Part shown: in pieces, positions 18,167 through 48,404 of the stretch
Layout: every line of letters begins with the position of its first letter
How positions within the stretch are numbered: position 1 is the stretch's first letter
Source of the DNA: Paracyclopina nana
Lineage: Eukaryota; Arthropoda; Copepoda; Cyclopoida; Cyclopettidae
Reading direction: 5' to 3'
NCBI GenBank assembly: GCA_019096065.1
Contig: JAGUCH010000001.1
Location: 16,864,001 to 16,928,000, forward strand
Length of the DNA stretch: 64,000 nucleotides
Position numbers and translations under genes: made by a program
Notes under the pieces: generated by a model
The model's input: the letters and a program-made list of their open reading frames with translations, nothing else
Told to the model about the DNA's origin: nothing
Databases searched by the model: none

Positions 18167-21100
18167 ATGGCCACAACTGATCCGCAAAAGGCTTCGGCTC
18201 ACACTTCTTCGACTCCGCGGTCATCCCTAAGCGCAATTAAGGATGCCGCAAGGAAGAAGAAGCGTGAGAGCAGCTCCTCGGAAATCATGATGGCCGACGA
18301 TCCATTTGCGCCAGCGCTAAACTCCAAGGAGAAGACCAAAGGCCGCACAGGCTTGGTATTTGACGAATTCATGGCTCAGCATGAAAACCCATGGGACGAA
18401 AAGCACGTGGAGTGCCCCAAGCGGCTCCTCAGGGCCAAAGAGCGGTGTGACGAGCTTGGCTTGACGGAAAAGTGCGTCACGATCCCAACGAGAAATGCTT
18501 CTCTTGAGGAGCTCTACACTTGCCACACCACTGAATACATTGACTTGTTGCAAGGTACTCTCCGCATGTATCAATTCCGCTCGCGGATCTAATTTTGCAC
18601 TGCTTTCAGAAATCACAAAAATGCCTGTTGAGCAGGCCAAGAAAAAGTGCATTGAGACCTTCCACTCCGTGTACATGAACGAGAAATCCTTTGACTGCGC
18701 TCTTATGGCAGCTGGCAGCTGCATTGAGCTGACAAAGGCCATCTGCGAGGGCCGAGTGCAGAACGGACTAGCTCTCGTCAGGCCTCCAGGTCACCACGCG
18801 TTAGTGGACGAAGCTTGCGGATTTTGCTTGTGCAACAACGTTGCCATCGCTGCCAAACATGCTCTAAAAGCCAAATTAGCCGAGAGGATCCTCATCGTTG
18901 ACTACGATGTGCATCACGGGCAAGCAACCCAATTTGAGTTCTACGACAACCCAGATGTCCTCTATTTTTCAATCCATCGTTATGAAGATGGATTGTTTTG
19001 GCCCAACCTCCGCGAATCCAATTTCGACTACATCGGTGGGCCCGAAGGCCAGCCTTCCTATGGGAAAAATATCAATGTCCCTCTGAACAAAACCGGCCTC
19101 GGCGATGCTGATTATTTATCCATTTTCCACCAGATTCTTCTGCCAATTGCAACAGAATTTCGCCCCGACCTGATCCTCGTCTCGGCTGGCTATGACGCGG
19201 CCTTTGGCTGTCCAGAGGGCGAAATGAGGGTCAGTCCCGCTACTTACGGCCACATCATCAACAGTCTCATGGCCTTCGCAGAGGGCAAAGTTGGAGTGTT
19301 CTTTGAGGGCGGTTACTTCATTGAAAGCTTGGCCGAAGGCGTGGCCATGACTCTGCGTGCTCTTTTGGGTGAGCCTTGCCTGGCCCTTGGAGCCCTTCCG
19401 GGGCCGGATCAGGCTCTCGTCGAGTCTGTCCTCAACGTTACGGCCTTTCATCGATTTGCGTGGGAGTGCTTGGCTCTGCAAGACGATTTCTCCATCAAGA
19501 CCTACGATGTGCTCACAGAGCTCGACTGCCACGTGCCAGCGATGGTGTACAAAGGCAAAGGCCTCTTCGATGCCACGCGAACTGGAGAGCACTATGCGTT
19601 CCACTCTCAATCCAAGCTTGATTCTCTCAATCAAGAGATGGCTGGCATGCGAACCAAATATGAGGTCAATCTGAAGCGAATGTCATTGGCCGAACGCCTA
19701 GTGGCTCTGGCTTATGACGAGGCCATGATGGTCCATGTCAATGGTGAGGAGCCCAGTCACCCTGAACAGCCACGTAGGATCAAGTGCATTTACGAGAGAC
19801 TTGAAGAGTTCGGCCTGTTGGCCAGAGAGGAGCTGAGCCAAATCGCAACCAGGAAAGCCACCAGTGAAGAGATCACGTTGGTGCACGACGAGAGCCATTT
19901 TGAGGCCATGAAGGCCACCGTGGAGTTGGATCAGCAGGAGCGCTACAAAGTAGCTGAGAAGTTCGACTCGATTTTCCTCAATGAGGCGAGCTTTGATGCC
20001 GCACTCTTGGCTTGCGGAAGTTTACTCGCTGTCGTTGACGCAGTATGTAATGAGGAAGCTACACGTGGCGTAGCTGTCATTCGGCCTCCTGGCCACCACG
20101 CTGAGGCTGACGAGGCTAATGGATTTTGCATTTTCAACAATGTCGCAGTTGCGGCCAAATATGGGCTGGAGATGCACAGCTTGAAACGCATCCTCATCCT
20201 GGATTGGGATGTGCACCACGGGAACGGAATACAGAACATGTTTTACAACGACCCACGTGTGCTCTACATCAGCCTGCATCGCTATGACTGGGGCTCCTTT
20301 TTCCCCGGCAAGGTGGACGCCAACCACGACTTTGTCGGGGCCGGAGCTGGCCAAGGCTTCAACGTGAACATTCCCTGGAATGGCCCCGGCATGGGCGACT
20401 CTGAATACGCACTGGCCTTTTTCGGCCTGGTCCTGCCTGTGGCTTACCAATTCAATCCGGATTTGGTACTTATTTCTGCCGGCTTTGACGCCGCCCGCGG
20501 GGACCCCCTCGGCGGGTGCAAGCTGAGCCCGGAGTTTTATGGCCACATGACCCATCACTTGAAGGCCTTGGCCAACGGGAAGGTCATCGTGGCCTTGGAG
20601 GGGGGCTACAATCTCAACTCGATCAGCTTGGCAATGACCATGGTCACGAAGGCTCTTGTGGGTGATCCTTTGCCCCTGCTGGCTCCCTACAAGAAGCCAG
20701 TGGCCTCTGCAGTCAAGTCTGTGCGATATGCCATCAAGGCCCAGCAGCCTTATTGGTCTTGCCTGAAATATGGCGTGAGGCTGCCCGACGATATTTCCAA
20801 CTTGAAGCACCAAATGTTGTTGAAGGTCGAGGAGTTTATCAAGAGCTCCGGCCATAGCCCTGACTACATCCCTAGTCAATTCGGAGCCTATGCAGCGTCC
20901 TTCAGCGTCGATACTTTGTCAGACATCAGGTAATATTTTGAAATTTGGGAAAACCCATTTGCATCCTGCTCATGATGCTCTTCACATATAGGGGCGTGTA
21001 TAAGAAGGAGGAGACCAATACAGTGGAGTCGAAAGCAATCGAGAGCAAAAACCTGATTTCGAGCCTGGAAAAGCTCAAGCTTACTGGCGAGAGGGGTGAC

Positions 21101-29638: not shown

Positions 29639-30120
29639 TAGTGATGGAACGAGCCGGAAATTTTCAGCTTGATCAAGCTTCAAGCTTTTTGAAAAGTGTT
29701 CGAGCGATCCCAAGCTTTTGAAAATTATTATCAAGCTTTTTCAAGCTCAAAATTTCACATTTCAAGCTTTTTTCAAGCTTTTCACTTTTTTAATAGTTTG
29801 ACATAAAAAATGGCGATTAGTCACCAGATTTGACAAAATTACTCAAAAAGCGCAAATAAAGAAATAGCTTTAACTTAGATATAAGTCACTCCCTCAAGTA
29901 TTTGTTAATTTTAAAATCAGCCCTTTTTGTTTAGATTAAAAATGGATAAAGTTTTGAAATTTTTTGGTGTCAAGCTTTTTCAAGCTTTGTATTTTTGGGT
30001 TCAAGCTTTTTCAAGCTTTTCAAAATTTGGTTCGAGCGATCCCAAGCTTTTTGCTTATGTAGCTCAAGCTGGGTTTCAGCTTCAAGCTTTCAAGCCAAGC
30101 TGAAACTCGTTCCATCACTA
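29639..30120. mobile_element. hAT-type MITE, 482 bp, with 8-bp target-site duplication
   Basis: Perfect 15-bp terminal inverted repeats, TAGTGATGGAACGAG at 29639-29653 and its reverse complement at 30106-30120. They are flanked on both sides by the identical octamer GTCATAAT (29631-29638 and 30121-30128). An 8-bp duplication and TAGTGATG-like ends are typical of hAT transposons. The interior has no transposase frame and is packed with TCAAGCTTTTT-type units, many containing AAGCTT. It ends about 110 bp before the SV2-like start codon. Confidence 0.88.
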
Positions 30121-30239
30121 GTCATAATCGCAAAAGTGCTCACATGGCTTGAAAGCAGAAAATATTTTATCATATTATATTGATGTTGGTGTCATGCGTA
30201 TGAACTAACCACAACTTGAACTCGATACTCGCTTTCAGT

Positions 30240-32350
30240 ATGGCAAGTGAGGTCGTTCGAATTCGCAGCAGCAGAAACTCGCCAGACATGGAAGAAAGAA
30301 AGAGTTTAATGAGGAGCTCCAGCAGCGGAGAAGAAGAAGTTCCTTTATATCGTAATTTTATAGTTCTTTTTAGTTGCTCAGAGTGTATTTGTGTACGGTT
30401 TATCTTTCATTACAAGTAAGCACTTTGTTTTATAATTTCAGTGATGACCTTTCATTATCTGTTAAAATTCGTTTATGTAATAATTGCATGCTCATCATTT
30501 TTCTTGCCAAGTCCTTAGAGGGCAGTAATAATGAAAAAGGATAATGGCGGTATATACTAGCTCATAAGCTTATAATTATCCTCAATACTTACGTTTTCTT
30601 TCAGGAAGCTCTGGAAGATCTGTAGGCAATGATGAGGACTCGAGTCCAAAAGACTACGAGACAGCCATTTCGATGGCTGGATTCGGACGCTTTCATTATT
30701 GGCTTCTGTTTGTTTGTGGCTGGGCCAATGCTAGTGATGCCATTGAAATCCTGTGCATTTCGTTTGTGCTCCCGTCAGCAACTTGTGATCTCGATTTGAC
30801 ATCTGGCGATAAGGGATGGTTGTCAGCCACCACTTTCATTGGTATGCTGATAGGAGGGTACATTTGGGGCAGCATTGGTGACACCATTGGCAGGAAAAAG
30901 ACTCTCATGATTGCCATGTTTGTCAATGCATTATTTGGCATCCTGTCCAGCCTATCCCAGACTAAAGGCGCTTTCTTTGCATTCAGATTCTTCAGTGGTT
31001 TAGGGTGAGTTTCATATGTGCTTTCCATCAGTATGCGTAAAAAAATTATTCTGATTAGGGTTGGTGGAAGCATCCCTCTGGTTTGGACCTATTTTGCAGA
31101 GTTTCAAAGCAAATCACGCCGAGGTGGAATGTTGTCTGCGCTAGCCACCTTTTGGATGGTGGGAAACATCACTGTGGCTGGCATTGCTTGGGCTATCATC
31201 CCCTGGGAGAACATTGGTGTCAACCCTGAAGATGGTTTCAAATTCAATTCTTGGAGAATTTTTGTTGCCCTATGCGGAGTCCCAGCACTGTTAGTGGCTG
31301 TCACGCTGGCATTTTTGCCTGAAAGTCCCAAGTACTTGCTGTCAAAGGGTAAAGAGCAGGAGGCCCTTAAAGTATTTCAAAACGTATACATGCGCAACAC
31401 TGGCCTTTATCCTTCTGACTACCCTGTGAAGCATGTGCTTGTTGAAAGACCTCCGCCACGAACTGCTCATCAGACTGCATCAAAATTCCAGGAGATTATT
31501 GCCAATACAGCCGAGTTATTCAAGAGACCTTTGCTTTGGGTCACACTTATGATGCTTTTCATTAATTTTGCAATCCAGTTTGGGTAAGAAGCTCTATCGT
31601 ATCTCGATTTTACATGTTTAACTTTTATGAAATGTGAAGGTATTATGGACTGTGGCTTTGGTTTCCGGAGCTGTTTAACAAACTTAACATTTATTACCAA
31701 GAAAATCCCAATGCGACTGTTGGTGTTTGCGATGTGACTAACTACAAGCCGAACAATCAAACCACCACTGACTGTGTGCCTAGCAATGATGTGTTCCTTA
31801 ACTCGTTCCTTATCTCCATATCTGCTTTGCCTGGAAATGTCTGGACGATCGTGCAGATGGACAAATTGGGCAGGAAGTTCTTCCTTGGTTCGTGATTTAC
31901 AAAAAAGTATCCAATTAGCTACTTCTGAATAAGTAACTTTTGCAGTGCTGAGCATGGTATTGTCTGGAGGTTGCGTATTCTTCATTTATCTGGTGACTTC
32001 TGAAGCTGCCAACCTTGCATTATCATGCGTGTTTGGATTCGTCTCTATCATGGGTTTCAACTCTCTTGATTGCCTTGGCATCGAGCTCTTTCCCACACAT
32101 GTCAGGTACTTAAGTCCGTTTTTTATTTATTTTCCAAAACATAGTCTAACCCATATTTTTTTAAAGATCTACTGCGATGGCAGTGACGTTAGCCATAGCG
32201 AGAATCGGTGCCATTCTTGGCAACGTCATATTCGGGTATTTCATCGAAGTCTCGTGCGCAGTTCCGGTTCTTATGGTGGCAGTTCTCCTAATATCAGGCG
32301 GCTTAACCAGTTTGAAGCTTCCCAACACAACTCAAACAGCTCTGGCGTAG
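30240..32350 (+). CDS. Synaptic vesicle glycoprotein 2 (SV2)-family MFS transporter
   Basis: Twelve-helix major facilitator protein of the SV2/SVOP branch, expected in secretory or synaptic vesicle membranes. Six coding exons, 30240-30351, 30605-31004, 31059-31583, 31640-31887, 31946-32105 and 32167-32350, give 542 residues. Seen: a Ser-rich cytosolic N-terminus; DAIEILCISFVLPSATCDL in TM1; the MFS loop GDTIGRKKTL; GLGVGGSIPLVWTYFAEF; LPESPKYLLSKGK ending the first half; FGYYGLWLWFPELFNKL in TM7; and MDKLGRKFF and LDCLGIELFPTHVRSTAM in the second half. The luminal loop after TM7 has N-glycosylation sites (NAT, NQT) but is much shorter than the large loop of vertebrate SV2A. Substrate unknown. 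Confidence 0.9.
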
Positions 32351-32354
32351 TGCA

Positions 32355-32360
32355 TTTATT
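32355..32360 (-). terminator. Polyadenylation signal AATAAA of the SFMBT-like gene (minus strand)
   Basis: It lies 12 bp beyond the SFMBT-like stop codon and only 5 bp beyond the SV2-like stop codon on the opposite strand. Cleavage downstream would place the SFMBT 3' end inside the SV2 coding exon. Confidence 0.5.
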
Positions 32361-32370
32361 GTAAAAAGTT

Positions 32371-32376
32371 ATTAAA
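32371..32376 (+). terminator. Polyadenylation signal ATTAAA of the SV2-like gene
   Basis: This common variant hexamer lies 21 bp after the SV2-like stop codon and overlaps the stop codon of the convergent SFMBT-like gene. Confidence 0.45.
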
Positions 32377-34777
32377 ACAAATTACTGTACGCAGATCTGT
32401 AAGCTAAGACAACACTTTCAATGTGCCTACATAGACTTATTGCAGTACTTGTCTTCAGCTTCCAAAACTCCTTCACAGTAGGATAATTGAGTAGCATAAA
32501 TGCCTGCCCGTCAATGTCTTCTTCGACGACAAATTGTGCTAGGTGAGCACAGTCGGGGGTCTGGGCCAAAAATCGGGCGGTATCTTTGGGACTCCAATTT
32601 TCGGGATTTTCATTCAGTCGGATTCTTCTTATCGGAGGTGGAGGCTTGGGGAAGTCGTTCATGGTGAATGCTGGAGGTAATTCACGCCGTCCCTTCTTTG
32701 CTCCAGACTTGCTCAACAATCCATCTGAGTAACCTATGGACGACCTAAGCGAGGAATTCTCAATGGCTCTCTGCTCTTTCCTTGACGGCCTGATTTTCAT
32801 GTGGAGGCTAAAGTTGGGCAGTTTTGCGCCGCGAGTGCGGATTTCACTCTTGGGCAAAATCGTGCCCCATTCTTTGCAGCTGCGTTTTTTCCTCATCGAG
32901 TTGGGTGATGATGGTCTCGATGATGAAGCCCCCGATTCGTCGCTTGAGGAGTTATGCTGGTCTCCGTTAGCCTTGGAATTCTCCACAATAAGACGATCGG
33001 CATGCCTTCGTTTCCGTCTCTCTGTTCGTTTCCTCGGAATTTTAATTTCGTTCTTGGGCACGTTGACAGCTTCTTCATCACGAAAATCAGTTCTTGGCCG
33101 ATTATGGCAGTCAGCTGGACAAACATCGTCGTAGATTGAGGTCGACACCAAATTCGGACAAGCCGAGAGCTTTTGGCACACCTCCTTCAGGTACTTGTCC
33201 ACCTGGTCCACTTTGGTGGGGATTTCGATGTTGGCTTTCAGGTTAAGCACCCTGGACTTGCCCTTGAGCTCCTCAATGACAAAGTTGGCCGGAGCTGTGT
33301 CGCGTTTAGTCTCCAACCTCCTGAGGACAGATCCCGACTTGAATGAAGATCCTATGATTAGGTTGAGTACTGATCTCAGCACAAGCTGGACAGGCCCTGG
33401 GCCCACTTTTTGGGGCAACCCTGCGAGCCTTGCTCTACTCAAAAAGCTGGCTGAATAACATTTGTAGTTGAAATACACTGGAGGACACCACGATCCATTC
33501 TCCTGAACAGCATCAACTACGCTATTTGGGGCTACAGGTTCTTCGTTGGTTTTAGGCTGCTCCTCAACTGCGATCTTGGCCTCATCTTTGGGAATGATTG
33601 AGTTAGGCACGAAAAATAGCAGATCATTGGCCTGGCACCACGTTATTGGGAAAACGATGGGATCGTGGACAGACACTGTGATTTCCATGCCCTTCTTAGA
33701 ATCGACTTTCAGGCATGCAAAGTGACTTGTAAGGCTTAAAACTGAGCAAGGATGGAACTCCTTGTGGTTCAAAAGTAGCATCAATTTTTGTCCACTTTTG
33801 TATCCAAGAGACTCTGCTGTGGTAAGCTTAGGGAATTTTTCTTCGGGTGCTTCATTCTCAGAGTCGTTGGATTTGTCGAGCCATGTTCCACAACGAGCCA
33901 CATAGAGTAAACTTGCAGGAGCTACAGTCTCTTTGGCATCGACGAGATCCAGTAGGAGGGGCTGCTCTTCAGTCACTACAGCATGATGAGCTCTGCCAAG
34001 CACAAGTACTTCCAAATGCTCACTCTTCTTAAACTCGTGCCTCACTTCCTCCTTGGAATTCTTAAACTGAAGGTCATAGGGTGGCTTCTTCAAATCATCC
34101 GATGTAGGCAAGCTAAGCCTGGAACTAGAGTAAAATATCCACTCCTGATGACCAGTCTTGCTCATATCCTGGATATGCAGGAGTCCTCCAGCATTGGCTA
34201 GAACTTTTCCCTGATACGTTTGCGTCCGATCAAGCATATCGCAGACAGTGAATCCCATGCCTGGCTTGATTCTGTCGACAGGGGCGACCCCATCGCCGTC
34301 AATGAAGTGCATGGAGATCGTGTCAAAAGTCGCATCCTCCAGGTATTGCAGGGCCAAGGTCTGCCATAGCGGGCAGATCTCAGCCACCCTTTTGGGAGGC
34401 TCCAGCTTGACCTTGTTCATTTGACACCATCCCAATGGGTACAGCCTTTCTTTGCTCAAATCGTGCCAGATTTCCAGCAGGTCTTCGTCCCCGAGCCAGG
34501 ACAGCTTGAGCAACGGTCCAAAGACACTGTCAATGCTGGCCAGCCAGAAAACTTGTCCGTCGGCATCGAGGGGTCGTTCCACAATCATGCCTTCTCGTAC
34601 TCCACTGTCCAGACTGGCCTCGACATGAGGAAATGCACCGTCTGGCGTGGCCTCGAGGTTTTCAGCTTCTAAATATGACAGCCAGTCGAACTCGTGCACC
34701 AAGCTAATTGACTCATCAGTGGCCATCGCTGATAAGTCAGGAGGTGGATCAGCTGTTTCCATAGGAGTTGCACTCAT
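32372..34777 (-). CDS. SFMBT: SFMBT-type Polycomb protein: four MBT repeats, SLED and SAM domains
   Basis: Chromatin repressor of the Scm-related, four-MBT-repeat family; in flies Sfmbt is part of the Pho-repressive complex. A single uninterrupted exon of 801 residues. The first MBT repeat is clear (FDWLSYLEAENLEATPDGAF, LDSGVREGMIVE, YPLGWCQMN). Repeats two and three are more divergent, and the fourth has FPITWCQAN. Next comes a SLED domain starting CPPVYFNYKCYSASFLSRAR, then a basic linker with KKRSCKEWGTI and Ser-rich tracts. A C-terminal SAM domain follows (WSPKDTARFLAQTPDCAHLA, then IDGQAFMLL). No FCS zinc finger is visible, unlike Drosophila Sfmbt and as in vertebrate SFMBT1/2. The absence of introns in 2.4 kb is unusual beside its neighbours. 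The symbol is a family name. Confidence 0.88.
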   Translation of the reverse strand: MSATPMETADPPPDLSAMATDESISLVHEFDWLSYLEAENLEATPDGAFPHVEASLDSGVREGMIVERPLDADGQVFWLASIDSVFGPLLKLSWLGDEDLLEIWHDLSKERLYPLGWCQMNKVKLEPPKRVAEICPLWQTLALQYLEDATFDTISMHFIDGDGVAPVDRIKPGMGFTVCDMLDRTQTYQGKVLANAGGLLHIQDMSKTGHQEWIFYSSSRLSLPTSDDLKKPPYDLQFKNSKEEVRHEFKKSEHLEVLVLGRAHHAVVTEEQPLLLDLVDAKETVAPASLLYVARCGTWLDKSNDSENEAPEEKFPKLTTAESLGYKSGQKLMLLLNHKEFHPCSVLSLTSHFACLKVDSKKGMEITVSVHDPIVFPITWCQANDLLFFVPNSIIPKDEAKIAVEEQPKTNEEPVAPNSVVDAVQENGSWCPPVYFNYKCYSASFLSRARLAGLPQKVGPGPVQLVLRSVLNLIIGSSFKSGSVLRRLETKRDTAPANFVIEELKGKSRVLNLKANIEIPTKVDQVDKYLKEVCQKLSACPNLVSTSIYDDVCPADCHNRPRTDFRDEEAVNVPKNEIKIPRKRTERRKRRHADRLIVENSKANGDQHNSSSDESGASSSRPSSPNSMRKKRSCKEWGTILPKSEIRTRGAKLPNFSLHMKIRPSRKEQRAIENSSLRSSIGYSDGLLSKSGAKKGRRELPPAFTMNDFPKPPPPIRRIRLNENPENWSPKDTARFLAQTPDCAHLAQFVVEEDIDGQAFMLLNYPTVKEFWKLKTSTAISLCRHIESVVLAYRSAYSNLF

Positions 34778-35391
34778 GCTGGATGCAGGAATTGGGCAGA
34801 AAAGTGGCGCGAGGCCTTTGCTTTTGCCAATTCAATTTACCGAGAAAAAGGTCGCCCCTCTGTGGCGAGAAATAATATGGAAAAGCTCTTATTTTGCGGC
34901 CGCAACAATTTCCGCTATGCCCACGCAACCTCTCACGCCATCGATCACGCAATAAGTCCGCGAGCTCCAATTCTGCTACTTACAGAGCACATGTTCCTAA
35001 TCTGAGCAACCATCTTCCGATCTACTGAGCGTGCAAGAGATTTTAGCGAGAACGAGGGGTGCTTTTAAAAAAATTGACTATATTCTCTGATGATAATAGT
35101 TGATTGATTGGTATAAATAGAACTGTTGTTGGTAGATAAATTCCACAATGTCACATTTTAATGGATCATTTAGGACTAATAATGCTGCGCATCGAATCAA
35201 CAATATCCGTCGTAGTATGATAATGATAAATGTGTCAGTCTGGATCAAGTTGTTCTTCACGTGTTCTTCTTATGCCTATACTGAATGAATGCTCGACAGA
35301 GAGATAATTCAGCCTAATTCCTCATTACACTGGTAGACTCTGAAATGGAAGTTTTTGTATAACGCCAGATTTACAATTAGCTAGAGCAGTT
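34778..35391. other. SFMBT-like 5' side and PPP4R1 3' side: no gene seen
   Basis: About 600 bp that must contain the SFMBT-like promoter and the PPP4R1 3' UTR. No supported coding frame. Confidence 0.5.
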
Positions 35392-38300
35392 TCAACGTAC
35401 ACTGATGTCTACAATGGGCTCCCCATCCGAGTCGTACATGTGCGCATCTTGAAAGAAAGCACGAACGTCGGGGTCCGTGTCCCCGCTCAATTCAGTCATC
35501 ACTCGCTCCATTCTTTCGTGGTGAGGATTTGCCTCTTTGATGAAGTAAGCTGAAGAAGAAAAATAGGCTTTAATAGCGCGAGAAACAAAGGGGGAATAGA
35601 AAGCTGCTTACTTGTTTGTTTGAGAAGCTTCAAGGCGCGAGCGACCACCAGCCTCACATTCGGCACTTTGTCCTCGGAAAGTTCCAAAATGTTGGGCAAA
35701 ACATCTTGGGCGTATTGCGCATGATCCAGAGCTTGCCCCTCATAAAGCTGCAAGGCCAGACTAGCATAAGTCTGCCGATGAATCCACAGCTCGTTTCTCA
35801 CCAGCTCACCAACCAGATCAGCCAGGAGGACGCGAACGATTCCCGAGCTTTGCGAGTCTTCCAGCAGGGTCTTGATAATGATGGAATGGACACTGACTGC
35901 GCCTAGCCTCACGGCCGAGACCTTGTCCTTGATGAGGAGCACGGCGATGGGTGCCAAATACTTTTTCACCTCTTCTGGCGAGCACAGCGGGACCAGTTGG
36001 CCCAGCTGCTCGGTGAGCTCTTGGCGAAATCTCCAATTGCGATCGTTGTCCATGTACAGGAAGTCCGACAGCCTGGGTAAATATTCGCGGCGGACATCTG
36101 GCGGAAGCAACCGGAGAAAGTCGGCTAAATGCTTGAGAAGGCCGATACGGACTTCGTCGAGGTCCTTGAGGAAGCCGTCGAAAATGGGAATGAGGTCGGT
36201 TTGTATCGCGTCCTGACCCAGGATCACTCCCAGCTCATGGATGGAGGAGGCCAACGTGCGCCTCACCTTCCACTGCATTTCGCTCGCCAAGGCCGCATAC
36301 GTCTCCTTGAGCAGAGGCCAATTGGACCGGCCCAGCGTGAGCGCAACAGCCGGAAGGGAGAAGGCACAGTGGTGGGCAATATCCGAGTCAACCGTTTGCG
36401 CCCGGGAGGGATCAGTCATGGAGACAAAGTAGTCAATTAGCGGTTGGGGAACTATCGATTGGATAGTAGCTGGTGGCCCCTTGGGTAGTGCTGGATCTTG
36501 CATGTTTTGCGGTTGAACTTGCGCAGGCTCTTGTTGCTTGTTGATGTTGTTGTTCAGGTTGTTCTGGCTAACATTGGGATCGAAGACGGAGAAGGAGGTC
36601 TTCTGCTGCTCAGCTGGCCGAAACAGCTCCATCGTGCTGGCATCGGAGGAATCTGAAAATTGCAATCGTTAGTGAGGAAGGAAATTTCAAATGAAAAAAA
36701 GGGCAAGCAACAGATAGAGGAGAGAGCAAGAGTGGTGCAGAAGGAGACCTCGTTCGTATTACCTGTGAGGTCATCAAACGTCTGAAAAGTGATGACGGGG
36801 CAATTGCTCCACATGCTATTGCCGTCCTCGTCCGAACCTCGATGGTCCCTGCTTGAACCTGAGGCGGCTGGCAAAAAACAAAGGAGAGAAATGCAAAAGC
36901 AGCAAAAGAAAACACACAAAGGAGAACAAAAGCAGCTGTGGTGTTGGTGCAAATTACGGGCTACATCTCGTGATTGATCAACTCGGTGAGATAAGTAAAA
37001 AAAAACAAATCCGTGCAATCCATCAAGCCGAAAAAAAGGGGGCAAAGCAGTCGTCTCACCTTTATCATTATCATCAGCCTTGGGGACATCAGCCGACTTG
37101 GCCTCATCGAGGCCCTCCAAAACTGGCACGGGGTCCCGCCAATAGAGAAAGTTGTTGTAGCTCTCCGAAGTGGCGAGGCTCGACGAGTTGTTGTTATCGT
37201 TGTTGTAGGCCTTGGCTCGCTCCTCTTCGAGGCTCAGGTCGCCTTCTGACCTCGAGTGTGCCATCATCAGCTTTTTGGCGCCAGCGTCCTCTAAATGCTC
37301 ATCCTCAGCGACGTCCATCATACTGTCGTCATCAGCCACAGCTTGGACCTCGTCACCACATTCGCGCTGCTGCTGCTGCTGCTGCTGCTTCTCAACATGC
37401 TGCTTCTGCTCCTCTGCCCTCGCGATTTCGAGGTCGTCCAGTCTGGAGGCCAAGAGGTCTCTGTCGGTGATGACGATCTCGCCGTTGTCGTTGTGCAGGA
37501 GGGCGGTGATGTTGGCATCCGCAAAGGTAGAGATGAAAGGCCCGAGGGCTTGGTAGGCCGTCATCTTGACCCACCTGGACTGGTCTTTCAAGAGGTTGAC
37601 GAAGATGGGCGACAACTCCGTTTTGCGGACAGAGGGCGAGCACACGCACGACACGGGCATGAACACGTCCGCACACGCCTTCCTCACGCCCCACACGCCG
37701 TCCTCGCACAGGTAGAAGAACTTGGGGAGCTGTCGAAGAAAAAAATCATTGGCATCATGTGGGAAAAAGTGGGCTAGTACAAAGCACTCACGAGGACTTG
37801 CTCAGTGGCCTCGAGTCCGACGACGGAGCTGAAATCGCCAAAGTTGGCCGCGCACACCTTCCTGATGTGGAAGAGGGGGTCGGTGCAGAGAGTGGCGAAC
37901 CTCTCGAGGAAAATGGCCTCGGTCATCTCCTTGCCAATGAGTGGAGCCATCTTGCTGAGGAGCTACATAAAGAAGAGAGGAGGTTGAGTGAGCCTTCATA
38001 TCCGCGCAAAATTGCGCACGGTCCTATCATAAAAGCAGCATTGGCCGCCGCCGTTTCCTCCGCGTCAGCGCGCGTGTGAGTTGCAAGGAAGGCAAGAGTA
38101 AGGTAAGTTGGTTTGGATGGCGCGGGATCAATAGTTCTCGTTTCCGCTCTCCCCTCACTCGCTTTTTTGCTGCTGCTAGTCGCTCAAAGTTGGCGTGTTT
38201 GCCATGAGCCTCCTTTGTGAAGCGCGTCCGTCGAGACGGGCCACGTGGTCTGGTCGGCCACGAGAAGTTGGAGTGGAGAGCGGCGGACAAAGGAGCGCGA

Positions 38301-41300
38301 GTCTCGCGCTCAAGCTGGCGCGCTTTCCAGCGGAGATCATTGACCTCGCTGAGTGTTGGCGGAGTTGGCGGCGGACAAAGCTGCTACTCTACACGATGAA
38401 AAGTCTTGCAAGAACACGGGCGATGACCTCATGAAGGATTCCGCTCATCAAAGCTGGCTGTGATATGAATTGATGTTCAAGTTTCCACATTGTCACGGCC
38501 ACTTTGAGAGCAGAGGCCAGCACAACAATATTCTTCAGCTTTGTGGTCTTCGGCGGCGATGCTATCGACCTCGGTGGGCCCAACTCGTCAAATTGGCTGT
38601 GATATGGACGGGTTTTTATAGAGCTGCACACCGCAACCACTTTGACGGGAGTGCCCAGGTCCAACTTTTTGTGTCATCCACCAAGAGATGATGATGCTTT
38701 TTTGCCTCCTCGAAGGCTACGATATTATTTAGCGGCTATAACAACACACAAGCTTTAATTTGAGTCTCGCGACCAATTTCGTGCTCATCAAAGCTGGCTG
38801 TGATACTCGAGTCGGAGGTATGACAAGCCAACCTTGATGCTCAGGACCCGGGTCATGTTATTCTTCCCTTCTTATTCCCCCCCTTAAAAAGCAGACCTTT
38901 GCATCGTTCCACTGCTGCTGGAAAGTCGCGCAGAATTACGCTTTGCATTCCTTCCAATTCCCCCCGCATTTGAGCAAGGGGGAGCAGCTGCATAAAATGG
39001 AATGCTCAAACTTACGCTACACAACTTTTAGAGAAGAAAAGCACTGGTCAAATTCGAAGAGATGATGCAACAGAGGAAGCTTATTAAGGGGGGAAAAACA
39101 CTGTTGGGCTGAGGTTCGGCCCCACCGGGCGAAAGACAAAATAGTGAGAGGTATCGCATAATTCGAACATCTCACTACCCATGTCTTTCACGCAGTAGCG
39201 GCCTCGATGGCGGTATTCTTGATATCTGAAAATATATTAGCAAGGTTGACTTACTGCAACAGCCTCGGTGCGGTAGTCGTCCGCCACGCTTTTGGCCTCG
39301 GTCAGTCCCAGGATGACGGGGCACACTTGCTCCTTCACGTCGTCCTTTTCCACGAGGCCTTGCTCCAGTAGAACCAGGAGCGCGGCCTGCGACGTCTTCC
39401 TCACCTGGATGTCGATGTCCTTCAGAAACTTGACCACCATGGGCAGGAGGATGCTGGGCACGACGTGCGCGAGCCTCGCTTTGAACTCCTGACAGGACAT
39501 GGCAATGTGGGGCACTTGCTCCATAAGTTCGGCTCGTACGCTGGGCTCTGAAAAGGATCACAATTTACAACAGCATGAACAGGTGGCACACACAAAAAAT
39601 GAGGAGCTTACCCGCGTCTTCGGCGAGCACGTTCATCACATTGAGCACGGCCTCCACGTCCTCGGGCACGTCGGTGACGACCCGGAGCGTGTCCAGGATG
39701 GTCCTTGCGATAAATTGCCTGAAATGTGCGCATGTAGATTGTCATTCTGGTGCCTAAGCCTGGACGGTCGACGACGACGCAAGGAGTTGGCTGCGTGAGA
39801 GCCACAAAGGAGGGGCCAACATGTCCCAAGCTTTCTAGAGTCCCATTGCTTCAGCAGCCACTGAGACTTTTGTTGGAGGAGAGGAGGAAAGTTTCCCCAT
39901 CATGGTACAACTGCTCCTCGCTGGCTTTTCCGCTACCAGCTCACTGCTGCTGCTACTGCTTTGATGGTATCGATCACGCAGAAAGAAGAAGCTGCTTTCT
40001 CAAGGTGTCCCGTCAAAAACGGCCCCCCGATCATCCCGCGAGGGGAGCCCGAGGACTGCTTCCACTCTTGTGCAGCGCCAAATCAATCCTCGCGCTTTTT
40101 CCTCCTCCCGGTCAACTGCATGCATGCATATCTTGCGTTGTACATGCCTATGACGCCTTTGTGCACGTTCATGCCTCGCTCACGAGCGGGCGTCGCTTCG
40201 CCCTCTCATGGAGGCCATTGCGTCGTGGTCACTGCTGCGACGCCCCCCGGCGGCCTCGCGGAGGCCACCAGACTGGTTTGCTTTTGCGTCACAACCATCG
40301 GCCCAAATTGGCACCGGTGCATGCGGTTGGAGCACAAAGTTCGCGTCGGGTTCACTGATGATGTTGATGACATCTTTAGCTCCGATGCGAGCTCACCAGC
40401 CAGCGGGCCAACACTAAGGCCAGAGTTGGTCCAAGCGGACGCAGACGATGGCGGCGGCGGCGACGGCGACAACGGCGACGACGACGACGACGACAAAGGC
40501 GCAGTCGAGCCTGGTCTGCTGCTCGTTGCTCTGGCCCAGTGCCAAAGCTCCAGGACGAGTGGAGCGGCGGCGGCACCGCGTCGGGCCGCTCTCCACCTCG
40601 GCGGCGGCCACGAGGCAGACGAGGCTGTTGGAGTGGGCGTTGGGACAAAGGAAGAAAGCCACCGCGGCGTGGCTGGCGCGTGAGCTACGGGTCGTCGTCC
40701 TCCCCCTCCTGGCCGGCGTGGCAAGCTCTCCCTCACTCCATCGCAGCTAAACTTCGTCTTCTTCTTCTTCTGGCTAGCATGCTACATTGCTACTTTATAG
40801 GTAGTCCGCCGCATACCCTCCTGCTTGCAGTCGAGCACCGAGGCTGGCGCCCTCTCGCGACGGCATCCCACAAGCCTCCAAAATCCAAATGCACACTGCT
40901 GCGATGGGATTCTGCTACACTTCTCTACCTGCCCCACATCGCATCGACATGGTCGTCTTCGTCTGGTGTATCTTTCCGTCGCGTTGTTGTCGCGCATATT
41001 TTTCACGCTCGTCACAAAACGGGTCAAAACGCTGCCCGCCAGATGGCGCGGCGGACCACACATCAACAAGCATTATTGCTTGTATTTTTCCCCCCGATCT
41101 CGCGTTTTGATGGGGAGTCACGTGTGACGAAGACAGGAAACCGTCTGCGGTCCATTTTGATGGCCACATGTGAGTTTTGCCAGGAAGACGGACGGACGCC
41201 CGCGGGGGCCACCCCGCTCCTCAATAATGACGATGCGAAAGCGTTTTTTCATATCTGCGATATGTTTGCCATTCTGGCGTCGAAGCTCTCGTCGTGTTTG

Positions 41301-44300
41301 CCAATTGGACCGTTTGCTCCGTGATCGATCGTAGCTGTTGCACCAGATAGTGACGCGCTTTTTTGGGCCTTCCGCGGGCAACGGCAACATTCATGCATGA
41401 GAGGTCTTTTTTCCGCGAGCGCAACGGTCACGAAGGCCAATGACCTGCATATGCAGCCACGCTGCAGTCGTTGTTGTTGTTGTTGTTGTTTTGCATTAGC
41501 TTGTTCAATACTTTGATCACCATGACGCCAAAATTCTGATCGCGTCGGCTGCTGCTGCTGCTGCAGTACATGCCAGCTTTTCCTTCTTCTTCACTTTTCA
41601 AACTGGCGGTCACGCCCAGTTCCTTTATGCTTTTGGGATCACACCTCGCACCTGCGCTATAAGCTAAATAGCTAAAAGCGCAAGAATCTCGCCGGCAATT
41701 GTGCGAAAAAGCTACACTTTCGCGCGCGCACACACACCGCAATATTAACGTACTATGTGCATTTCGCGTCTAGACACGGTCATTCATGAGAACCAAGGCT
41801 GTTTTTCATTCTTGTTATCATTGTGGAAATGTTCATTTGCCAACGGACTTTCCACGCAGTTGAGGAAACGCGCGAGCTTTTAGCTTGCCTTTTTGCCAGC
41901 TCTGAATTTGCAAACGCGCTACACGGCATCATCGTGTATAACTGTATCATTTTCAAATTCACCAAATTGCACGTCGTTCCTGCAGTAACAGTTGTTGCGA
42001 AATGCATTCGGCAACTCTCGCGAGACATCAACTGATTTCCTTCCAGGTACGCTAAGAAAAGCCAGCTCAAAAAGGGTTCAGGGCCAAACCTCTATGCGCT
42101 ATAGCATATACAGGAATTTTTGGAGCTCACAACAGTTTTTCTGAGTCAGTAGAGCACAGGCTATGGTATGCTGCTGCTGCTGGCTCATAAATTAGCCGTT
42201 AGCGAAAAAAAACGAGAGCACCACTCTCGGAGCCTGTCCCTGAGGTTTTTTTTCGTGGGGGGAAGAAAAACGAGAGAATAGCCCGCGGCCATGCCTTCAA
42301 ATCTTAAGAAACAATCTTTTTTATTTCACACACTTTACCAACAGACAGTTGCTTCCACGACAACAACTGCAAATGAGTTTTCACACATATTCAAAGCCAA
42401 AAAAAAAAGATGAATAAAGCTAGAAAAGCTGCTGCTGCTGTTGCATTCATTCGGTAAAAAAGAAATGAGTCAAGTTCGAAGAAAACTACATGTATATATA
42501 TCTATATGTATAATGTATGAGTCATTGGCTTAATTGAAAACAACGATTCGTCTTTTCGGGTAGGAGCAAGGAAAAAAGCCCAAGAGACCCTGAAAGACCC
42601 GTCACAGACTGTCTGCAAGTTCACAGTAGATTGAGCAGATGCGTCGATATTATAATGGGAGCAACTACTACTACTACACTGCAGACCCTAATTCCAAAGT
42701 CAGACATGTACACCAGTGTACTAACTAGCCAGACGATTTTCCACATACGCGACTACAGAATCATTAGCTTTTTCAGGGAAATGCAGAGAGAGGGGAGCAA
42801 AAAACAATTCCACCATTTTGCATGTTAGGAAAAGTTTAAAAATCACGGCACTTGGAAGAAGTGCACTGTCATTTTTGCAGACATGTCTTGTGTGTGCACT
42901 GAATTGTGGTGCATCCCACCAGGTCAGTCAACTTGGTGCATTTCAAAGGGTCAATCATGCAGGAGGAAGCCATCGATCCTGCCGACGACGATGATTTTTT
43001 GGGTCATCGCTCAATCATGCAGGTGGAGTCCATTTGAACAAAAACATGATCCTAATCTTTGGGCAATTGTTGACAGCTACCATCACCGGCTTCTTACTCA
43101 TGCATGCATAACAAATGCGATTTTTTTCCACCTAGCGAACTTGCGCGACCTGATTTTTTTCAAGGCTACAACTTTAAGCTTGGCTGGCTGGCTTTCCAGC
43201 TTAAAAAGCTGCGAATCCGTCAAAGTCGATCAGAACGCGTTTGCCAAGCATGTCTTTGTTATGTATGTGTGACGATAGTTCAACGAACTTCTCCACATAT
43301 GCTCCGCTTTTTGTGTGATGATACGTTCTCGCTTTTCTGCTCTTTTCGTCTGATGTTGGGTGAAGGTCGGTCAACTTTTGAGTGTCGCAGCAGGCTTCAG
43401 CTACAATCGCAGTAGCACACTAAAAGTAGCCTCCTTTATTTTGGCTTGGACACCACCACGTGCTTGCCAATTCATTTATTGCACGTGCACTGCACCTGCA
43501 GCAGCCCCATACAAAGCAGCATTTTTCCTCTCCATGGCAGATAAGGATCGATCGCGTTGAAATCACGACGACGACGAGGATCATGACTAAATGACAAATG
43601 ACACAAAATGGCAGGTGAGGAGGAGAAGAGTTCCAGCGAAAGCAGCTGTTTTGGAAGGAAACAGCAAAAGGGGCAGATGCAGCAGCAGCAGTTTTCCTTG
43701 AAATCATCATTATCATGCATGGCACCCAGCTTATCTGGTCTTCACATCGTCAAAGTAGTCTTCGTCGTTATTGTCCACCACCATGGATTCGGAGGCTTCT
43801 CGGACAATGCCAGCTACCTTGTTAGTGGGTCACTCTCACCAAAAGCAGCTCTCCTCCATTCACACTGGGGCAAAATGGCGCGCCTTTTCCAATATACGTA
43901 ACCCCAAATGGCAGCAGCAGCAGCAGCCGCGCGCCACTTTTATTATATAAGCCACCTTCGCTCGCATGGCTAATTTTCATTCGGCTCTTTTATGGGCAGA
44001 TAGCCTCCAAGTGCAGCTGGGATGGTCATCTTTGGTATGCAAACCTGCCGAAACTTGTTGACTAAGACGACTTCAGCTTAAGAGTCATAAAAGCTTAGGA
44101 CAATTTCGCAGCTTAATGCTACTACAACGCGCCATGCACACTGGGCAGATGCGAGCGCAAATGTTGTCGCATTGGAAAGCGGTCGAGGGGCTTAGCTGCC
44201 CCTCAGTGGTGCCCACTATTGGCCAAGAGGTCAACGGATCTTCAAAAAATGTGGACAAACTTGCAGTTTCTAATTTTTTCGTTCAACTGCTGCTTCTACA

Positions 44301-46737
44301 GGTTGCACAATTCGCCTCGTCATCATAAACAGTCGACGACGACGAGTAGAACGGGTTGCTCGGCTAATTTCATCACGTCCACACAAATCCAGCTTGCAAT
44401 TTTTAGTACTAAAGAACTATTTCTGCATGCAGCTGAATCCGAAAAGCATAAAAACGCCGGAATATTAGCAGCTTCCGCTACAGTTTTGCTGCCATTTGCG
44501 AAAATGCTGGGAAGTTGTTGGCCTTTTCCCTCTCTTTTATTGTGAAATAGCTAAACTGAGCTCCAATAGAGGGAAATTGCGAGCAACTGCCGAAAAATGT
44601 AGCAGCAGCCATAAAGTAATCTTGGATCTAGATGACATCAGAAGGTAAATGGGCATTTTCAGGATCGCAAATCCATCAATCCACAACTGCTGCTGGGACA
44701 ACACGACAAGCATGTGTCCATTTCACAGATTTTTCCCCCCCTCAGGACAATTCTCTTCGCACTACATGAGAGCAAACTTTCATGTGAAGGTTAATTTTTC
44801 CATCAGATCAACTACTGCTGCTACGTGAGATCGATGCCATCGTCAGCCTTACGTGAGTCGACCACCCAAAAACCTACGATACTTTTTCTGTTGCGTAATT
44901 AGGATAATTGGAGCATGGAGGTAAATGAGGGTGACAGCAGTAGAAGCAATGGTCAAATAAATGCCCTTTGTCACAATGCCAGCAGAAATGGAAAAAGCCT
45001 AGAGGCGATGCCTTTATGCTTCGCTTTTGGGGATTGATGATGGTCAACAACAACTAGTGCAAAACAGATCTGCAGTTTTGGGACACAAATAACAGCATAA
45101 CACAGGCCTCTTAACAGCTTTGCCTTGATTGCAGCAAACAGCAGCAGTCACAGTAATTATCCCCGATGCAGCTAGCCTCGAAAATGGACAAGACTATCTA
45201 TCTACCTATTATCGAACGGCATCGTCATTAAGGCAAACTTCAAAAAAGGTAAAAGCAGCAGACCAGCCTGGAAAGTTCGTTCTTCTTTTTTTGCAGGTAT
45301 AAAATACTGAGGATCGCATTTGCGTGTTCAATAATTCTACTGAGTGTGACGATCCGTAACTCCCCTCGCTTTTGCGTTGCAGCAGTAGAAAGCTTTTTAG
45401 AGCTTCTATGATCTAGCTTCGTTATCTCGTTACGAACCGGCAAATAATTTCCAAGTGTTGTGCAGAGTATATACTATACCAAACAAGGAAAGCTACACTG
45501 AGCTAAGGGGGGAAATATGGACACACTCATGATGCATTAGGAATGCTTGGCATTCCAGCTTGAGCAGCAGTCTTCTTGGGATTTTCTGTAATTGTCTTTG
45601 CGCGAGAGAGCTTCAAAAAAAGGGTGCACAGCTATGATGATCATGTAGAGTTTCAATTTTTTGCTGTCCATCATCACAAAGCATGGAGAGATGGCAATTT
45701 TTTCCCTTGCCTTCTTGCACTCCGTGATAGCTTGTGGTAAAGACTCTTGAAGCTTGCGGAATGCTAAAATTCGCAGCAGCAGTGAAGGGGTCAATTTTAG
45801 CCAGAGCATTCCATGACGACGACGACGACGAGAACGACAAGTTTTGAGAGAAAAGGCGCAGAGAGATGCGCGCAATTTTATCATTGTTTGCTCTTCCCCC
45901 TAATGTGGGAAACATCATTCATCTTCTTCGTGCTCATTTTCGTCTTCGAATGAGAATGGATCCGATAATTTTCTTAGCAATTTGCAAACTCTATCATTGA
46001 CATGGTGCACTTAAAGCATGCTCAGGCCAGCAATAATAGAGTGTTTGACCTTTTTTGTGACTCGCGCGGCCGTCAAAGTCCTCAATAGGTCGGCAGTTTG
46101 GGACTGAATTAGCAGCAATAACAGCAGCGAAAAAACGTCGTCGGTCGGCAGACTTAGGGAAATCAATTCTGCTTACCTGTTGAAGACGTTGTCTGAGTTG
46201 GCATATTTAACCAGTTTCTCGATGGGTGGTAGCAAGTCATCTGGATTTGGCATGGATTCTCTCTGATTGTAACCTGCAATACAGGCGCATATGAAAACTG
46301 GAGCACAAATTCAAAAACCACATGTGCTGCTCTTTTTTTCGAAACGCAAGCACACACACACCAAACACAGCCTGCCTGCTATATGGTGTGTGCTTTATTT
46401 CGAAAAGCTTTACGACTTCAGCAAGCCAAACTTTACCAAAAATTGGTGCTGTGGCAAAAATGTTGAATAGTAAAATTTAAGAAAAAAGCTTCCACTTACC
46501 ACCCTCTCCATCGTCTGTATCTTCGTACAAATCTACGTTAAAAGAAACTACTAGCACTTTTTGCAACAGCATCATAACTTGAATAAAAAGTTCACTTACC
46601 ACCTTCGCCTTCGTCCGAGTCTTCATTTGGAAAGTAGTATATATCTGCAAGAGATTCACACGTTAGTCCGACTCGAAATTGAGCGCCCAGCGAGGCCGGG
46701 AAGGGCTTAAATTTGACCAAAAATACCTACCAGCCAT
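35392..46737 (-). CDS. PPP4R1: Protein phosphatase 4 regulatory subunit 1 (HEAT repeats)
   Basis: Scaffold subunit that binds the PP4 catalytic subunit and directs its dephosphorylation targets. Eleven coding exons: 46731-46737 (7 bp), 46600-46644, 46500-46532, 46177-46273, 39612-39718, 39255-39547, 37792-37962, 37060-37729, 36763-36858, 35612-36652 and 35392-35549, giving 905 residues. The start MADIYYFPNEDSDEG is acidic; then IEKLVKYANSDNVFNRQFIA and HEAT repeats (VRAELMEQVPHIA, VRKTSQAALLVLLEQ, VRKVCAANFGD, WGVRKACADVFMPVS). A variable acidic centre holds a polyglutamine run. A conserved second half follows (YFVSMTDPSRAQTVDSDIAH, MQWKVRRTLASSIHELGVIL, FDGFLKDLDEVRIGLLKHLA). Intron 4 is 6.4 kb; intron 6 hosts the miR-71/miR-2 cluster. 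It is head-to-head with TIPIN. Confidence 0.96.
38436..38512 (-). ncRNA. mir-2: mir-2 hairpin (copy B), last in the cluster
   Basis: The mature 3p arm at 38443-38465 (minus) begins TATCACAGCCAGCTTTGATG and ends AGC, identical as far as I recall to arthropod miR-2a. The 5p arm on the same strand (CTCTCAAAGTGGCCGTGACA) pairs with it across a loop of about 22 bases. It sits in PPP4R1 intron 6 on the host strand and targets mRNAs through seed ATCACAG. Known miR-2 family members regulate apoptosis and neural genes in insects. Confidence 0.92.
38576..38655 (-). ncRNA. mir-13: mir-13-like hairpin of the miR-2 family
   Basis: The 3p arm at 38583-38604 (minus) begins TATCACAGCCAATTTGACGA and ends GT. 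This keeps the miR-2 family seed, and the tail TTTGACGAGT matches miR-13b, with A in place of T at position 12. The 5p arm around CGTCAAAGTGGTTGCGGTG pairs with it over a loop containing TATAAAAACC. It lies between the two mir-2 copies. Confidence 0.88.
38775..38848 (-). ncRNA. mir-2: mir-2 hairpin (copy A)
   Basis: The 3p arm at 38783-38805 (minus) is identical to that of copy B (starts TATCACAGCCAGCTTTGATG). The 5p arm GCATCAAGGTTGGCTTGTCA pairs with it over a short loop. The hairpin backbone differs from copy B, so the copies are old or have diverged outside the mature strand. Confidence 0.92.
39118..39202 (-). ncRNA. mir-71: mir-71 hairpin, first in the cluster
   Basis: The 5p arm at 39168-39190 (minus) begins TGAAAGACATGGGTAGTGAG and ends ATG, the known miR-71 sequence. 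The opposite arm at 39130-39151 (CTCTCACTATTTTGTCTTTC) folds back onto it with a loop of about 18 bases. miR-71 upstream of miR-2 members is the ancestral protostome cluster. It is on the PPP4R1 strand and ends about 50 bp from exon 6. Confidence 0.94.
39719..46176 (-). other. PPP4R1 intron 4 (6.4 kb): no confident gene
   Basis: Large intron with a GC-rich block at about 40000-41400 and many short triplet repeats: (GAC)n near 40470, (TTG)n at about 41470, and (GCA/GCT)n near 41560, 42430, 43680 and 43910. A 14-bp string TCAATCATGCAGGN occurs twice near 42953 and 43011. Long open frames in the GC-rich block occur on both strands and are low complexity, so I do not call them genes. Confidence 0.6.
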
Positions 46738-47427
46738 TTTGTCTCTTGATCATTTTTGATCTAGGCTGAATGTAACGGCTGCGTTTCAAGCCTTTTCAGG
46801 TTCGAAATGGCCACAAATGGCAGCTATTGAGGGGAAACAAGCCAAAAGATAACACTGTGGATCTTCCCTTGTGCTGCGCTTGGTTTTTGTTGCGAAAGAC
46901 TTAGTAATGACGCGGGTGCGCAGTTTCTTCACCCGGCCGATTTGGCAGAAAATAAATTCAATTTTGGCCTTGTCATTTCAAAAACGAAAAGCTTAATTTG
47001 AGGCATTTCAGAAATTGTGCAGGCCGCATTTGTAAATTATATCAAGTGTATTGACGAATAAAACTCATATTTTTGATTGGTAAATAATTATTTAAGAAAA
47101 ATAAATGTTCAAGACTCAATACTGAAATCGATTCATAAGAGATGTAAGCGATTTTCAGAAAACTTGACTCACTTTCGGTATTTTTGTCTGAAATTGAAAA
47201 ATTATTTGAAAGGAAAAAAATAGACGATTTGTGAAAAACGATGAGAGTACATGAAACCTTGCGATGCTTTTTAAGCACTAGCTTATACAGGCATAAAGAT
47301 TCAGTGACATTTTACATTAACTTCTTGTGATTTTTTTTTCGATCGAAATGCCGCGAAATCCAAATCATTGCAACAAAATTCAAAACAAAGCAGCAAACTC
47401 CTGTAAGTCAGTTTAGAATCTGAGAAA
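46738..47427. promoter_or_regulatory. Divergent promoter region between PPP4R1 and TIPIN
   Basis: The two start codons face away from each other across 690 bp. Both genes are broadly expressed and cell-cycle related, so a shared promoter is plausible. No specific element stands out. Confidence 0.4.
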
Positions 47428-48404
47428 ATGGAAGTCGAGGATGGATTTGGTGCGGAGGATCTCTTTGACGGTATGCACGACATTTATATCAATATTAAGT
47501 CACACTTGCTAATTGAGTTAATTCCAATTCTGCAGATGATCGACGCCAATCTGACGATGAGGAAAATCGAGGCACCAATTTGATTGATGAAGCCTTTGAA
47601 GTACCTGAAAAGTCCAGCAAAGCCAAAGCTGATGAGGAGAAGTCAAAGAAGCGCATAATTCGCAATCCTCAGCCAAAATTAGACCCTGCCAGGATTCTTG
47701 GCCCGCGTGGAATTTCCACGCTTCCACAGGTTTTCTCCGACTTTAAGGCTAAAGGCGGTGATCATGTCTTTGAAGACCTAGATATGTACATGAAGAAAAT
47801 GGAGCATTGGGCTCACCGGTTGTACCCCAAACTACCTTGTGATGATGTCATGGACAGGATTGCCGTTTTGGGCAAGAAAATGTCCATTCAGGTAATTGCA
47901 TATTATTACTTCATTGCCTTTACTCTTATAAGAAGCTTATTTTTGCAGACAAATGTCAAAAAAATCCGAATGGGCATGGATCCCCTAATTCAACAAGAAG
48001 TCCCGAATGAGGAGGAAATTGAGGAGAACCAAGAAGATAACACGCATCGTTATGACAACGAAGAGTTTCCTACTGAAGACGTGTTTGAAGAAATGATGCG
48101 TGAAGCTGACGAGGCCAATAGAGAGCCTCCAAAAGAAGCTCCTAAACCGAGCCAAGGCCTGACTGAGGAGCAGAAGGAACGAATGATGAGGAATAGGCGT
48201 TTGGCTGAGGAAAGGCGATTGGCAAGGCAACAAGAAAAGTTGAAATTGGAGGCTGCAGCTTTATCTCAGAACGAAGACGATGAGCAAATTACCATCATTT
48301 GTCATAATGAGGACGACTCAGATGTGGAGCAACCTTTGTCACAAGTCTACACTTCAAATCGCAGGAATTTACCGGAGCCAGGGCAAAACGAAGATTCCTC
48401 ATGA
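47428..48404 (+). CDS. TIPIN: TIMELESS-interacting protein (Swi3/Csm3 family)
   Basis: Nuclear replication-fork protein that binds Timeless and RPA and supports the S-phase checkpoint. Three coding exons, 47428-47470, 47536-47891 and 47949-48404, give 284 residues. The Swi3 domain is clear: LDPARILGPRGISTLPQVFS, then a helical block MYMKKMEHWAHRLYPKLP and VMDRIAVLGKK, then VKKIRMGMDP. The C-terminal half is acidic with a Glu/Arg coiled-coil-like stretch (MMRNRRLAEERRLARQQEKL). Length matches the family (about 280-300). Confidence 0.94.

Follow-up and report, generated by a model that had tools for sequence, protein, structure and literature searches.

Intron 6 of a predicted PPP4R1 gene, on the minus strand of the window (the whole stretch of DNA analyzed, 64,000 nucleotides), harbors four microRNA hairpins between positions 38439 and 39196. 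As assigned with Rfam, their transcript order is mir-71, mir-2, a mir-13-like member and a further mir-2; all four lie on the same strand within 758 bp and form a mir-71/mir-2 cluster, with mir-71 first and the mir-2 members next. The features of the locus are given below, where identities refer to the human PPP4R1 protein.

46177..46737, minus strand: PPP4R1 exons 1-4 (46737-46731, 46644-46600, 46532-46500, 46273-46177), with introns 1-3 between
39719..46176, minus strand: PPP4R1 intron 4 (6458 nt), longest among the ten introns of the splice model
39612..39718, minus strand: PPP4R1 exon 5, 50% identity over 36 residues
39255..39547, minus strand: PPP4R1 exon 6, ends ...TEAVA, 59% identity over 100 aligned positions
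37963..39254, minus strand: PPP4R1 intron 6, GTAAGT...ATGTAG, 1292 nt, phase 0, contains the cluster
39123..39196, minus strand: mir-71 hairpin, 5p arm 39190-39168 (RF00832, 67.5 bits, E 8.7e-13)
38779..38844, minus strand: mir-2 hairpin, first copy, 3p arm 38805-38783 (RF00047, 33.4 bits, E 0.0043)
38579..38652, minus strand: mir-13-like hairpin, 3p arm 38604-38582 (RF00047, 44.5 bits, E 6.4e-6)
38439..38513, minus strand: mir-2 hairpin, last copy, 3p arm 38465-38443 (RF00047, 54.3 bits, E 2.1e-8)
37792..37962, minus strand: PPP4R1 exon 7, starts LLSKMAPL, 52% identity over 63 aligned positions
37729-37060, 36867-36763, 36652-35612 and 35549-35392, minus strand: PPP4R1 exons 8-11, from the splice model and HEAT matches

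The exon-intron structure of the host gene is that of a predicted splice model, which begins at an ATG at 46737, comprises 11 exons and ten GT-AG introns and encodes 908 residues with a single terminal stop, the N-terminus of the model protein being MADIYYFPNEDSDEGEG. Exons 1-3 are based on reading frame and splice sites only. Exon 4 matches the human protein with an E-value of 0.005 in a standard search and of 2e-5 under relaxed settings, and the region of exons 8-11 matches it at 62% over 71 residues and 54% over 278 residues. Also, Pfam HEAT repeats exceed the curated score in two of the four exon translations tested. In a PDB search with exon 10, 20 distinct sequences of PP2A scaffold subunits were recovered, PPP4R1 not being among them, so that the host name rests on the matches to the human protein. 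Elsewhere in the genome, exon 10 has one other, weak match (35% over 72 residues). Exon matches on both sides of the cluster, together with the splice model, uphold the PPP4R1 host named in the first-pass annotation, and the count in the 11-exon model likewise gives intron number 6; within this intron the cluster is in sense orientation.

Other predicted genes of the window include the following. PPP4R1 (minus strand) and a plus-strand gene with a Swi3 domain, which we take to be TIPIN-like, lie head to head at 46737-47428, their start codons 690 bp apart if the plus-strand ATG at 47428, chosen by eye, is the one used. Past the 3' end of PPP4R1, an open frame of 819 aa (32372-34831, minus strand) contains SLED and MBT domains. 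Another open frame, of 822 aa (18465-20933, plus strand), contains two histone deacetylase stretches and is presumably HDAC6-like.

The Rfam E-values listed above derive from a search over 18 kb (30000-48000), which returned eight rows, consisting of the four hairpins, three plus-strand mirror images and one sR14 snoRNA. The sR14 match, at 36761, is under its Rfam cut-off and was taken as chance. On the plus strand (38441-39197), the antisense of mir-71 and of two mir-2-family hairpins matches Rfam below the cut-off and with lower scores, and also folds. Over the whole window, the curated Rfam gathering cut-offs (50 bits for mir-71, RF00832; 45.5 bits for mir-2, RF00047) were passed by two of the hairpins, namely mir-71 and the last mir-2. 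Within the mir-2 family, one of three hairpins is therefore above the cut-off (54.3 bits), the remaining two scoring 44.5 and 33.4 bits. These minus-strand assignments confirm the four hairpins, with the identity, order and host strand that had been read from the sequence.

Folding, which had been proposed as a check, gave z scores of -6.59 for mir-71 (0 of 200 dinucleotide shuffles equally stable), -4.18 for the first mir-2 (1 of 200), -2.49 for the mir-13-like hairpin (4 of 200) and -4.70 for the last mir-2 (0 of 200). With mononucleotide shuffles and the Rfam boundaries, 0, 0, 10 and 0 of 500 sequences were equally stable, in transcript order. The mir-13-like hairpin, which is just modestly more stable than its shuffles, has the lowest fold-energy support, its miR-2 seed and arm layout being kept. 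A fifth hairpin candidate, between mir-71 and the first mir-2 (38925-39020, minus strand), was rejected, with a z score of -2.12, 6 of 200 shuffles equally stable and no Rfam match.

The 3p arms of both mir-2 copies are the same 23 nt, with no difference, and in all three mir-2-family hairpins the 3p arm starts with UAUCACAGCC, the start motif of mir-2 3p arms. The miR-13 label rests in part on Drosophila sequences, the arm being close to Drosophila miR-13b. As the sequences are printed in the respective papers, the same arm start is present in bmo-miR-13, from which the mir-13-like arm differs in being one base shorter and in one further base (PMC2500172), and miR-71-5p is identical to silkworm bmo-miR-71 across 24 nt (PMC2500172) and to snail bgl-miR-71-5p across 23 nt (PMC12261956).

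In order to evaluate the occurrence of the cluster in the genome, the source assembly was searched (91,952,342 bases in 10 contigs). With the mir-71 model, two rows were listed, which are both strands of the cluster hairpin (best 60 of 9,337 candidates scored). Three were listed with the mir-2 model, each of them within the cluster (best 60 of 24,126 candidates scored). Among the matches listed (best 60 candidates for each model, 91.95 Mb), none is a mir-71 or mir-2 outside the cluster, which apparently is single-copy in this genome; the mir-2 search is non-exhaustive, because the weakest cluster copy is itself missing from its rows. A pattern made from the mir-2 mature arm, with up to two mismatches allowed, occurs at 12 places (two exact, one with one mismatch and nine with two), and its backward-read control at none. 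Both exact places fall in the cluster; the mir-13-like copy, with a spacing shorter by one base, does not match the pattern. The one-mismatch place (C5:1371936) was discarded as a mir-2, its arm having no opposing partner and lying, by eye, antisense to an ankyrin-like frame; further distant mir-2 members may be present among the nine two-mismatch places. Also, stray animal DNA was sought with the miR-71 core in bacterial/archaeal and viral contigs, where nothing was found, and a search for COX1 in the assembly found no mitochondrial contig.

Other searches of the assembly bear on its taxonomic origin. It holds 80 Chitin_bind_4 matches, and since large numbers of this domain mark arthropods, these suggest an arthropod. 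A mir-965 candidate occurs at C1:16372772-16372793 (minus strand), with one mismatch to miR-965, and folds as a hairpin. On the statement in PMC4987109 that mir-965 and mir-282 are mandibulate-specific, the mir-965 match suggests Mandibulata, whereas the mir-282 pattern has no match in the genome, which counts against this placement.

It could be asked whether the hairpins are chance inverted repeats. The Rfam E-values (9e-13 to 0.004 in the 18-kb search), the identity of mature arms to printed sequences and the occurrence of four related hairpins in a single intron make this probability negligible, and for mir-71 and the last mir-2 the 18-kb search, the curated cut-offs passed and the genome search with the mir-71 model already weigh against it. 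A less extreme view is that some of the lower-scoring hairpins, the mir-13-like and the first mir-2, are decayed, unprocessed copies; both are indeed under the Rfam cut-off, and the mir-13-like fold is the weak one (4/200 and 10/500 shuffles). Yet the first mir-2 keeps its full 23-nt mature arm and folds with a z score of -4.18, and the mir-13-like copy keeps its seed, so decay of either is considered unlikely. The preferred reading is that the locus contains the conserved protostome mir-71/mir-2 cluster, situated on the coding strand in intron 6 of an arthropod PPP4R1; to the identity of cluster and host we give a probability of about 95%.

Sequence, predicted fold, order, strand, host and intron of the hairpins are read directly from the analysis; as regards expression, we infer the source of the transcript, its processing and its targets. 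Most likely, an RNA crossing intron 6 would act as a polycistronic precursor and would be cut into four hairpins by the nuclear miRNA processor, yielding miR-71-5p and three miR-2/13-family 3p RNAs, which would repress mRNAs via two seeds, GAAAGAC and AUCACAG. The cluster could be transcribed along with its host gene, or else from within intron 4 (6.5 kb), which is a candidate site for a separate promoter or regulatory region of the cluster. That the cluster has its own promoter, PPP4R1 being a mere location, is compatible with this explanation and is given slightly less than an even chance. Pointing in that direction are the 6458 nt of intron 4, when the remaining introns of the splice model, intron 6 apart, number eight and measure 62-226 nt, and the case of C. 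elegans, where the DNA preceding mir-71 and mir-2 directs expression unlike that of the host; upstream promoter activity was shown there for mir-71 and in an earlier cited study for mir-2, and mir-71, from its own promoter, overlaps the host just partly in expression (PMC2835999). On the other side, the mir-71 hairpin begins 58 nt past the 5' splice site of its intron, which leaves little promoter room upstream within intron 6, and the oyster is the contrary case, since its mir-2 copies follow host expression, with a best r of 0.93 (PMC4138081).

A regulatory link between PP4 and the targets of miR-2, which the first-pass annotation had envisaged should the host prove to be shared, is unsupported. 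Between the end of the coding sequence and the frame of the next gene (35400-34832), a boundary from which the actual 3'UTR end may differ, there is no seed site for either miR-2 or miR-71. Autoregulation of PPP4R1 through a feedback loop of either microRNA is accordingly without support here. In the larger interval 46300-34832, two copies of the miR-71 heptamer are present, one in intron 4 (42598) and the other within the mir-71 hairpin (39137).

The association of this microRNA family with PPP4R1 is not confined to the present genome. Introns of ppfr-1 contain both mir-71 and mir-2 in C. elegans (PMC2835999), and PPP4R1 hosts a six-copy mir-2 cluster in the oyster C. gigas, whose authors pointed out that the host is common to C. 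elegans and possibly reflects an ancestral organization (PMC4138081); the link between PPP4R1 and mir-2 has thus been in print since 2014. The host is common to nematode, oyster and the present arthropod, the former two as taken from those papers. No arthropod report of a PPP4R1 host is among the literature matches listed, and one may exist.

Since nematode and oyster have the same host, the PPP4R1 location was very probably inherited from the protostome ancestor. Hosts do change: the oyster paper places the Drosophila mir-2 cluster in spitz and mir-13 in CG7033, and describes mir-2 as intergenic in the majority of animals investigated (PMC4138081). These cases would allow a separate entry of the cluster into PPP4R1 in the present lineage, the shared host being a coincidence; against this stands the recurrence of one host gene with one microRNA family in a nematode and a mollusc, as published in the papers cited, and here in an arthropod, which renders such a move very improbable. 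A farther-reaching proposal, which goes beyond inheritance of the host, is that the same PPP4R1 intron has been held since the protostome ancestor through the arthropod, nematode and mollusc lineages, because production of miR-71 and miR-2 is coupled to PPP4R1 transcription or splicing, cases of the Drosophila type being secondary departures. We regard this proposal as speculative and rather doubtful.

The cluster itself was known, as was its host in two other phyla; the present locus adds an arthropod case, through which the idea of an ancestral host gains strength and can be tested more easily. The oyster authors had inferred such a host from a single mollusc and a single nematode, Drosophila being an exception (PMC4138081). 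With an arthropod that carries the cluster in PPP4R1, Drosophila looks derived and a single ancestral location is supported, which sharpens a question for comparative genomics, that of whether the host was retained for co-expression or is a passive address.

Known systems compare with the present locus as follows. In chelicerates, mir-71 and mir-2 members are clustered, with copy numbers that differ, and the words "host" and "intron" do not appear in the main text (PMC4987109). In the crustacean Parhyale, mir-71 and mir-2 members are likewise clustered, and no host gene is named in the passages compared (PMC5111886). C. elegans is alike in having mir-71 and mir-2 in introns of the PPP4R1 orthologue ppfr-1 and on the host strand (PMC2835999, PMC3410857), but it differs in that they occupy two separate introns (PMC2835999), whereas here mir-71 shares a single intron with three hairpins of the mir-2 family, as compared with one mir-2 in C. 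elegans by the count of the oyster paper (PMC4138081). The distance between mir-71 and mir-2 is about 7 kb in C. elegans, and in Haemonchus the two form a tight pair (PMC3282659); that paper leaves the host unnamed and does not contain "ppfr". The oyster is alike in having a tandem mir-2 cluster in a PPP4R1 intron, but differs in its six mir-2 copies and in that "mir-71" does not occur in the main text (PMC4138081). With the PPP4R1-hosted systems of C. elegans and the oyster, the present arthropod has in common a sense location of the microRNAs in an intron of the host gene.
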